From the NCBI GenBank assembly GCA_016934825.1, contig JAFGSB010000017.1:1-36012 (forward strand): a DNA stretch of 36,012 bases. Reading direction: 5' to 3'. This document shows positions 27,395 through 34,863 of this stretch, one piece after another. This DNA comes from Candidatus Zhuqueibacterota bacterium. Its GTDB lineage: Bacteria > Zhuqueibacterota > Zhuqueibacteria > Residuimicrobiales > Krinioviventaceae. Under the pieces are notes generated by a model. The model ran no database searches, had not been told where the DNA came from, and worked only from the letters and a program-made list of their open reading frames with translations. Within the stretch, counting starts at the first letter, position 1, and each line of letters opens with the position of its first letter. The position numbers and the translations under genes are program-made.

Positions 27395-28139
27395 GAATAT
27401 TCCTTTCCAGTAAATAATCCTTAACTTCCCGTATCGAGTTTTCCCTGTAGTGAAATATGGAAGCGGCAAGAGCGGCGTCCGCGTATCCATCTGTAAAAAC
27501 CTGACTAAAATGTTTCAATTCACCGCAACCGCCCGAAGCGATGACCGGAATGGACACTGCTCTGGAAATCGTTCGGGTTAAATCAATGTCAAAACCGATT
27601 TTGGTCCCGTCCCTGTCCATCGATGTTAGCAGGATTTCCCCGGCTCCGATCTCTTCGGCTTCCTGCGCCCATTCGAGGGCGTCGCGGTCGACCGGTTTTC
27701 TGCCGCCATAAACATATACCTGCCATGAGCGGTCATCTTTTTTTTTGGCATCTATCGCGAGTACGGTCGCCTGGCTGCCGAAACGGTCGGCGCATTCTTT
27801 AATTAAATCCGGATTAAAAACAGCGGCCGTGTTCATTGTCACTTTATCGGCGCCGCTTTTCAATAACAACTGCGCATCCTCAGCGGTTCTTACTCCGCCG
27901 CCTACCGTTAACGGCATAAATACCTGTTCGGCAGTCCGGCGGACAACATCCAGCATAATTTCACGGTTATCGGATGACGCCGTTATATCCAAAAAGACAA
28001 GTTCATCCGCTCCATGCTCGTCATAATAACGGGCCTGTTCCACAGGATCGCCCGCGTCGACAAGATTTAAAAAATTTATTCCTTTTACAACTCGTCCCTC
28101 GGTAACATCAAGACAAGGTATTATTCTTTTAGCCAGCAT
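27381..28139 (-). CDS. hisF: imidazole glycerol phosphate synthase, cyclase subunit
   Basis: This 252-residue TIM-barrel protein has the two catalytic Asp residues at D11 (IIPCLDV) and D130 (VLAIDAK). Phosphate-binding loops are TVGGGVRT and IASGGCGEL. HisF uses ammonia from HisH to form imidazole glycerol phosphate and AICAR from PRFAR. Length is typical. It lies 16 bases after hisA and overlaps hisI. Confidence 0.97.
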
Positions 28140-33441: not shown

Positions 33442-33475
33442 AAAAAAAAAGCCCACCGATATTCCAGTGGGCTTT
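33442..33475 (-). terminator. attenuator terminator of the his operon
   Basis: On the minus strand AAAGCCCACTG, loop GAATAT, CGGTGGGCTTT forms an 11-bp stem with one G-U pair, followed by a run of nine T (33450 down to 33442). It lies 43 bases after the leader-peptide stop and about 100 bases before hisG. No gene stop needs termination at this place, which fits transcription attenuation. Confidence 0.85.
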
Positions 33476-33518
33476 AATACTTTATGATAATAGTCATGAT
33501 ATGCACATCACCCAACCG

Positions 33519-33578
33519 CTATTCGGAATTATAAATACCGTGAGTATGGTGAAAATGATGTTCTGCATATCTGATCAT
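33519..33578 (-). CDS. hisL: his operon leader peptide
   Basis: An ATG at 33578 opens a 19-codon frame ending in TAG (33519-33521): MIRYAEHHFHHTHGIYNSE. Five of the seven residues 7-13 are histidine (CAT CAT TTT CAC CAT ACT CAC). ACGGAAAA upstream is a possible ribosome-binding site. The peptide sits between a promoter-like sequence and an intrinsic terminator ahead of hisG, as in proteobacterial his leaders. When charged tRNA-His is scarce a ribosome would stall in the His run and favour the antiterminated form. Candidate alternative pairings exist, for example ATTCC at codons 17-18 with GGAAT in the terminator loop, but they are short and not proven. Confidence 0.8.
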   Translation of the reverse strand: MIRYAEHHFHHTHGIYNSE

Positions 33579-33606
33579 AATATTTTCCGTATTCTTTAAT
33601 TTTTAT

Positions 33607-33635
33607 AATTTAATACTGAGCAAGTTAAAATGCAA
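33607..33635 (-). promoter_or_regulatory. probable his operon promoter TTGCAT-N17-TAAATT
   Basis: On the minus strand TTGCAT (complement of 33630-33635) and TAAATT (complement of 33607-33612) are separated by 17 bases. The transcript would begin about 20-25 bases before the leader-peptide ATG. The -35 box matches other proposed promoters in the window. Confidence 0.45.
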
Positions 33636-33669: not shown

Positions 33670-34863
33670 TTATTTTAATTGTAATAATTCCTGTACTTCA
33701 CGGGCAACGACAAGTTCCTCGTTCGTCGGTATAACAACAACTTTAACTTTTGAATCACCGCTTGATATAACGGCTTCATCGCTGACACTTTCATTTAATG
33801 ACGGATCAATTTTGATACCCAAACAATCCAGTCCGCCGGTAATTTTCTCTCTGAACGGCGCGCCTTTTTCGCCGATGCCCCCCGTAAAAACAAGCAGATC
33901 ACAGCCGCCAAGCACAGCAAAATAGGCACCAATATAAAGTTTAACCCGGTAACAAAAAGTATTCACTGCAAGCATGGCGCGTTTTTCTCCGCTTTGGGCA
34001 TCTTTTTCAATCTGTTTCACATCTTTTAATTCCCCGGCAATACCGGCCATACCGCTTTTTGATTGCAGCAGGTCTGCAACTTCATCGACGGACATTTTTT
34101 CAACCTTTTGCAGATACAATGGGATGAAAGGATCGAGATCACCACAGCGATTCGCGTTTAACAAACCGCTTTGCGGTGAAAAGGACATGCTGGTATCAAT
34201 TGATTGACCATTTTTGATTGCACAAATCGATGAACTGCCGCCCAGATGACAGGAAATTAATCGGACATGTTTCGGATCAAAACCGGCAAATTCCGGGGCC
34301 CTCTCGGAGATATATCTGTGCGATGCCCCATGAAATCCGTATTTTCGGATTCCATGTTTTTCAGCCAGTTCAAGAGGTAAACCGGAGGTATAGGCGTAAT
34401 CCGGTATTGTTTTATGAAATGCCGGCTCAAACAGTCCAACAGCCGGAATTCCGGGTATCAATTTTTTAAAAATTCGGATCGCCTGGATATAAGGCGGATT
34501 ATGAGCCGGAGCCAGAAAATTATATTCCTCCATAGCATTCAGAATATAATTTTCCAAAATCCTGCATTCACGCATATTTTTACCATGCACCGTTTTAAAA
34601 CCGACGGCGCTTAATTCGTTCAATGACTTTAAAACTCCTTTATTGTCCGCAATGATAAAGTCAATACAATCACTGATCGCGCTTTCATAATTTTCATATC
34701 GTTTGCTGCCGGTTTTTTCGTTGTTTAGCGAATTTAGCTGATACGATGATTCTCCATACCCTATATTTTCTATTTTCCCGTAAGCCAGGATAGATTCATC
34801 CGACATATCGTAAAGCTTGAACTTGAAGGAAGTACTGCCCACGTTGGCAACAAGGATCTTCAT
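33670..34863 (-). CDS. acetate-kinase-family protein, divergent active site
   Basis: From ATG 34863 the protein has 397 residues, normal for AckA. Conserved parts are VANVGSTSFKF (N7), KYGFHGASHRYI, CGDLDP, TGGIGEKG and IPTNEELVVAREV. Compared with Methanosarcina AckA (residue numbers from that enzyme), R91 of HRVVHGG is Lys (FKTVHGK), D148 of FDTAFH is Glu (FEPAFH) and N211-G212 of HLGNGSS are Gly-Ser (HLGGSSS), and MGTR reads NANR. R241 (NANRCGD) and E384 (PTNEEL) are kept. It is clearly in the ASKHA acetate/propionate kinase family, but changed residues at the carboxylate and phosphate sites make the substrate doubtful. It overlaps the ROK gene stop by one base (TGATG) and has AGGCGG upstream. 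The TTG at 34866 is a less likely start. Confidence 0.85.
   Translation of the reverse strand: MKILVANVGSTSFKFKLYDMSDESILAYGKIENIGYGESSYQLNSLNNEKTGSKRYENYESAISDCIDFIIADNKGVLKSLNELSAVGFKTVHGKNMRECRILENYILNAMEEYNFLAPAHNPPYIQAIRIFKKLIPGIPAVGLFEPAFHKTIPDYAYTSGLPLELAEKHGIRKYGFHGASHRYISERAPEFAGFDPKHVRLISCHLGGSSSICAIKNGQSIDTSMSFSPQSGLLNANRCGDLDPFIPLYLQKVEKMSVDEVADLLQSKSGMAGIAGELKDVKQIEKDAQSGEKRAMLAVNTFCYRVKLYIGAYFAVLGGCDLLVFTGGIGEKGAPFREKITGGLDCLGIKIDPSLNESVSDEAVISSGDSKVKVVVIPTNEELVVAREVQELLQLK

Follow-up and report, generated by a model that had tools for sequence, protein, structure and literature searches.

In Escherichia coli, hisG is the first gene of the his operon. The leader peptide of this operon has 18 amino acids with seven consecutive histidines (PMC3896937). 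Leader-peptide attenuation had been described as confined to Proteobacteria and Actinobacteria before its extension to Firmicutes (PMC2965389), and a comparative survey predicts his attenuators in the Bacillus cereus group, Peptostreptococcaceae and Erysipelotrichales (PMC9413887). For Flavobacterium psychrophilum, a member of the Bacteroidota, one report describes 'strong clues' for leader-peptide attenuation at amino-acid operons, as well as a structured and conserved 5' element upstream of hisG (PMC9723704). Here, we analyzed a stretch of 36,012 nucleotides, hereafter the window, in which the region ahead of hisG very probably controls the his operon as a ribosome-mediated transcription attenuator. 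One relative, G014 (L013), belongs to GTDB class UBA2214 of phylum KSB1; its letters occur unchanged within DCUM01000204.1, from bacterium UBA2214. This phylum consisted of the single class UBA2214 (PMC9386943), and it has been renamed Zhuqueibacterota, within the FCB superphylum (PMC11683472). The initial annotation had suggested an uncultured lineage other than the usual groups, and this agrees with the candidate phylum KSB1/Zhuqueibacterota, to which the window most likely belongs.

The his genes of the window form an eight-gene operon with the order hisG-D-C-B-H-A-F-I (Table 1). The listed hisI frame starts at 27490 and shares 110 nt with the end of hisF (27381), and the true hisI start is probably an internal ATG. 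When HisG was searched in plasmids, only distant homologues were found. Directly upstream of the operon lies a short His-rich frame, with histidine at codons 7, 8, 10, 11 and 13, i.e., five in seven codons (33560-33540). Clusters of at least five His in eight codons, no more than 330 nt upstream of hisG, appeared in only 1 of 3000 dinucleotide shuffles of the window's own region. Between this frame and the first structural gene there is an intrinsic terminator with the stem AAAGCCCACTGG-AATA-TCGGTGGGCTTT (33475-33448, minus strand); its T tail had been reported correctly, and the 11 bp assigned to its stem became 12 counted pairs, a trivial difference. The whole leader folded at -42.2 kcal/mol, against -25.7 ± 3.7 kcal/mol for shuffles (z -4.5). 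The 19-codon frame with its five His in seven codons and the terminator that follows were thus found on the minus strand where the initial annotation had placed them, directly upstream of hisG, and these elements, the rarity of the His cluster in shuffles and the fold z-score together indicate that the observation was correct.

Table 1. Features of the his leader and operon in the window, and the Trp leader of the same genome.
Feature	Position	Strand	Description
His leader promoter-like site	TTGCAT 33635-33630; TAAATT 33612-33607	minus	17-nt spacer; chosen on conservation
His leader peptide frame	33578-33519	minus	MIRYAEHHFHHTHGIYNSE; ATG 33578 to TAG 33519, 19 codons
Region 1	33579-33545	minus	Leader codons including His codons; predicted, if ribosome-free, to pair with region 2 plus downstream flank (33518-33481)
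Region 2	33518-33510	minus	CGGUUGGGU (also given as GGUUGGGU); directly after leader stop; predicted antiterminator 5' strand
Region 3	33475-33464	minus	AAAGCCCACTGG; terminator 5' arm, common to the predicted antiterminator
Region 4	33459-33442	minus	TCGGTGGGCTTT (33459-33448) and T run (to 33442)
hisG	33338-32442	minus	TIGR00070 and TIGR03455; long form, regulatory C-terminal domain; first operon gene
hisD, hisC, hisB, hisH, hisA, hisF, hisI	32430-27029	minus	Rest of operon
Trp leader, window's own genome	G000:C160, locus L139; ~370-230 nt upstream of trpE domain start		MKEYKLNSALLWWWWYQVREVYHR

The promoter-like sequence claimed ahead of the frame was also recovered, as TTGCAT and TAAATT at 33635-33607, and relatives share its layout: a -35-like element of the TTGCAT/TTGCTT/TTGACA type, exactly 17 nt and a TA...T -10 element were present at 19 of 26 loci, when 0.9 were expected from mononucleotide shuffles. 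RNA made from this conserved site would have its 5' end some 20 nt ahead of the leader ATG. The best score in a simple scan fell on another promoter-like site, inside the leader frame (33555-33528); this is probably a chance match, and the conserved site was preferred. The position of the promoter bears on a plain explanation of the locus, in which the terminator merely ends the transcript of ackA (acetate kinase) and the His-rich frame is accidental. This gene ends at 33670 on the same strand, about 200 nt upstream, as such an explanation would have it, but the sequence that separates ackA from the leader frame contains the promoter with its 17-nt spacer.

The closest whole genomes form one order of 22 species within a class of 63, and hisG upstream DNA was compared from nearly every matching member of the class. 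In this order, 19 genomes, among them that of the window, had sufficient DNA ahead of hisG, and a short frame with at least three His, followed by a T-tailed terminator, was found in 18 of them; G007 is counted among the 18 although its contig cuts the frame start, and G009, G012 and G003 were left out because of contig ends or a lack of hisG. The sister species (L002) has the leader MIRYTVHHHHHAHITDNSL at the same place, other relatives have, for example, MQNHHTKNHHHLKYSCTGGW, MYCHHHSHHHHSKILSGGG, MYYCRIHHHHHHHTYVT and MNNTIQKHHHHSHHHAEAPLS, and some leaders contain three His only. In the three further families of the class, all eight checked members had the His frame and the terminator (three of three in f7, all four with hisG in f10, where L025 was weak, and the one with sequence in f13). 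Two further named MAGs, L032 and L033, showed weaker His frames with terminators. The T-tailed stem upstream of hisG was kept in nearly all relatives checked across the class. Families with a divergent HisG (39-42% identity or the short form) had no His frame with terminator upstream, and neither had G051, where hisG comes after hisI. Outside these lineages, a comparable frame and terminator were found in only 1 of 77 hisG upstream regions, that of L042, which may represent another unrecorded lineage with his attenuation. This locus (664-814 of JAKUSY010000444.1, a MAG labelled Planctomycetota and outside the KSB1 set) carries a separate His-rich leader, MTKTLHVFHHPIHHHLRHSPRRGSQVC, and the terminator CCCGTAAC-CGTG-GTTACGGG-T8 upstream of hisG.

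Peptide sequence, terminator and spacing drift between the relatives, the leader stop standing 19-48 nt from the terminator, and the constant feature is the run of His codons. When residues were ranked by their maximum count per 8-codon window, His came first, with at least five in 14 of 24 regions, and the Ile and Ser runs that followed were other frames of the CAT repeats. The sole exception within the order, G008 (L019), has a terminator and the antiterminator segment TCGGGAGG with no His frame, which may reflect natural decay or a change of sensing; its elements sit 160-40 nt upstream of hisG. The patterns that the initial annotation had named as contrary to its own reading, i.e., a terminator kept without the His run or His codons that are not conserved, were looked for in the relatives and, with the single exception of G008, were not found, because His frame and terminator are retained jointly and compensating changes preserve the alternative pairings. 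A terminator without a His frame, as in G008, is what a stop signal for ackA alone would leave; however, the joint retention of both elements elsewhere, the His enrichment and the co-variation described below make it very unlikely that the terminator serves only ackA. Since the arrangement is kept in nearly all relatives, textbook E. coli-type control would be standard equipment in this little-known phylum.

The leader RNA was then considered as three alternative pairings, 1:2, 2:3 and 3:4. The coding region of the leader pairs with region 2 in the predicted 1:2 hairpin, which beat shuffles with a mean z of -2.05 and partly involves His codons (CAUCACC with GGUGAUG). In the window, this duplex reached -25.4 kcal/mol against -14.4 kcal/mol for shuffles (z -3.5), and the minimum free energy fold also showed region 1 paired with region 2 and its flank. 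In stalled-ribosome folds, region 2 paired instead with the segment GCCCACUG of the terminator 5' arm. For this 2:3 pairing, the RNA that stays accessible when a ribosome stalls at the first His was paired with the terminator 5' arm and compared with shuffles at 27 loci, giving a mean z of -2.23. Moreover, native partners averaged -14.4 kcal/mol at 26 loci, between-genome swaps -12.05 ± 0.48 kcal/mol, and 0 of 20,000 permutations were as good; these statistics overstate independence and the p-values are optimistic, because the genomes and loci are related. An exclusive antiterminator that uses the terminator 5' arm and would be freed by stalling is therefore predicted by the energy models across the set, and it is weak in the window alone, where the helix (CGGU-U-GGGU with GCCCACUG) had -10.4 kcal/mol and p = 0.20 against shuffles. 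In the sister species, which shares this layout, p was 0.012. In family f2, five of the six tested loci (L008, L010, L012, L013 and L014) had a 2:3 pairing no better than shuffles, and L005 was the only one that surpassed them.

Regions 2 and 3 change together between genomes. CGGGAGG faces CCTTCCG in L003, L009 and L011, CCGGTGGG faces CCCACCGG in L022-L024, CAGATGGTGGG faces CCCACTATCTG in L026, and GAAGTGGG faces CCCACTTTC in L112. The leader's own end, GGU GGG UGA (Gly-Gly-stop), constitutes region 2 in many relatives, and a ribosome that has reached the stop codon would therefore cover it. Folds of the window and three relatives gave the 1:2 hairpin and the terminator for free RNA, the antiterminator with a stalled ribosome, and the terminator once the leader was completed. 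From these states, we infer stalling, read-through and a response to histidine as follows. Transcription would start about 20 nt ahead of the short His-rich frame. With His-tRNA charged, the ribosome would reach the leader stop and cover region 2, allowing the 3:4 terminator to form and transcription to end before hisG. With charged His-tRNA scarce, the ribosome would stall on the His codons and occupy region 1, leaving region 2 to pair with the terminator 5' arm, and transcription would proceed into hisGDCBHAFI. If no ribosome were present, region 1 would hold region 2 in the 1:2 hairpin and the terminator would again form.

Another possibility is that a T-box, a histidine riboswitch or a regulatory protein, and not a stalled ribosome, is what senses histidine supply at the leader. 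No Rfam match was obtained at gathering score for the locus and 14 relatives, so the leader stands outside every described RNA family at that threshold. The His_leader covariance model (RF00514) was not matched at gathering score and was absent from the sub-threshold matches too, and the T-box model gave no match upstream of the operon in the window and 14 relatives, the sub-threshold list included. The sub-threshold matches themselves were at chance level and mostly to terminator-tailed sRNA families. T-boxes do regulate his genes of certain Firmicutes and Actinobacteria (PMC9413887), and a role for DnaA at the E. coli his attenuator has been proposed (PMC10989985); but what stays constant here is the run of His codons, with no conserved RNA aptamer, and a reader other than the ribosome is thus highly improbable. 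Translational versions of such attenuators are described (PMC9413887), but it is hardly credible that stalling here works chiefly through translation, via reinitiation or exposure of the hisG ribosome site: the strong hairpin, the long T run, the spacing of 109 nt from terminator to hisG in the window and the retention of the T-tailed stem across the class argue for termination.

Support for an attenuator read by the ribosome came from the trp genes of the order. A Trp leader carrying WWW or WWWW, with T-tailed hairpins after it, was present upstream of trpE in all eight same-order genomes with upstream DNA, namely the window's own genome (Table 1) and loci L136-L138 and L140-L143. The hairpins are strongly conserved and stand two in tandem in most of these genomes, the first being GCCGTGGATGCA...TGCATTCACGGC and the next GGCGCTGTGAA.... 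From its sequence, GGTGCACCAC, near the Trp leader stop, looks complementary to both the Trp codons and the first hairpin. The Trp leader had no Rfam match. Within 1.5 kb upstream of leuA (Leu, Ile or Val runs) and of the prephenate dehydratase gene (Phe runs), nothing convincing was found in the same order. The presence of a Trp attenuator in the order indicates that leader-peptide control is a habit of the lineage, in support of the his leader reading, and suggests that the phylum controls more than one amino acid by leader peptides.

The initial annotation had considered that this control, established in proteobacteria, might be undescribed in the lineage of the window. This novelty has to be moderated, since leader-peptide attenuation has been reported in Actinobacteria and Firmicutes, with clues in Bacteroidota; the occurrence of his leader attenuation in KSB1, however, appears to be undescribed, as no description of it was found in the open-access literature. 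The mechanism is ordinary, with the same logic as the classical his attenuator, and the known principle is unchanged. Its reach into an uncultured candidate phylum implies that transcription and translation are coupled or nearly so in this phylum, and the 27 loci provide diverse natural variants whose sequences drift while the logic of the switch is retained. We suggest only tentatively that the his attenuator and the parallel trp attenuator of KSB1 represent a use of leader-peptide control within the FCB superphylum that is either independent or very ancient. Its layout would be compact: in many members, the antiterminator strand consists of the last leader codons and the stop codon themselves, and a terminating ribosome would mask region 2 directly.

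Among the systems compared, the Flavobacterium psychrophilum case shares with the KSB1 leader the FCB superphylum, an inferred leader-peptide attenuation and a structured element upstream of hisG; the likeness is one of description, and the available part of that report does not give a His-leader anatomy (PMC9723704). The his attenuators of Firmicutes, as presented in the accessible part of the survey, likewise combine a His-rich leader with terminator and antiterminator hairpins and were recognized by comparative genomics, but they belong to a different phylum, and KSB1 is apparently absent from that part (PMC9413887). There is also a resemblance in plan to hisL of E. coli and Salmonella, where a short leader bears a run of His codons, alternative hairpins can form, an intrinsic terminator precedes the his genes and hisG stands in first place. 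Unlike hisL, the leader of the window has fewer and interrupted His, in a distant lineage. There are fewer predicted hairpins (1:2, 2:3 and 3:4), and region 2 lies at or overlaps the leader stop, within the last Gly-Gly-stop in many relatives.
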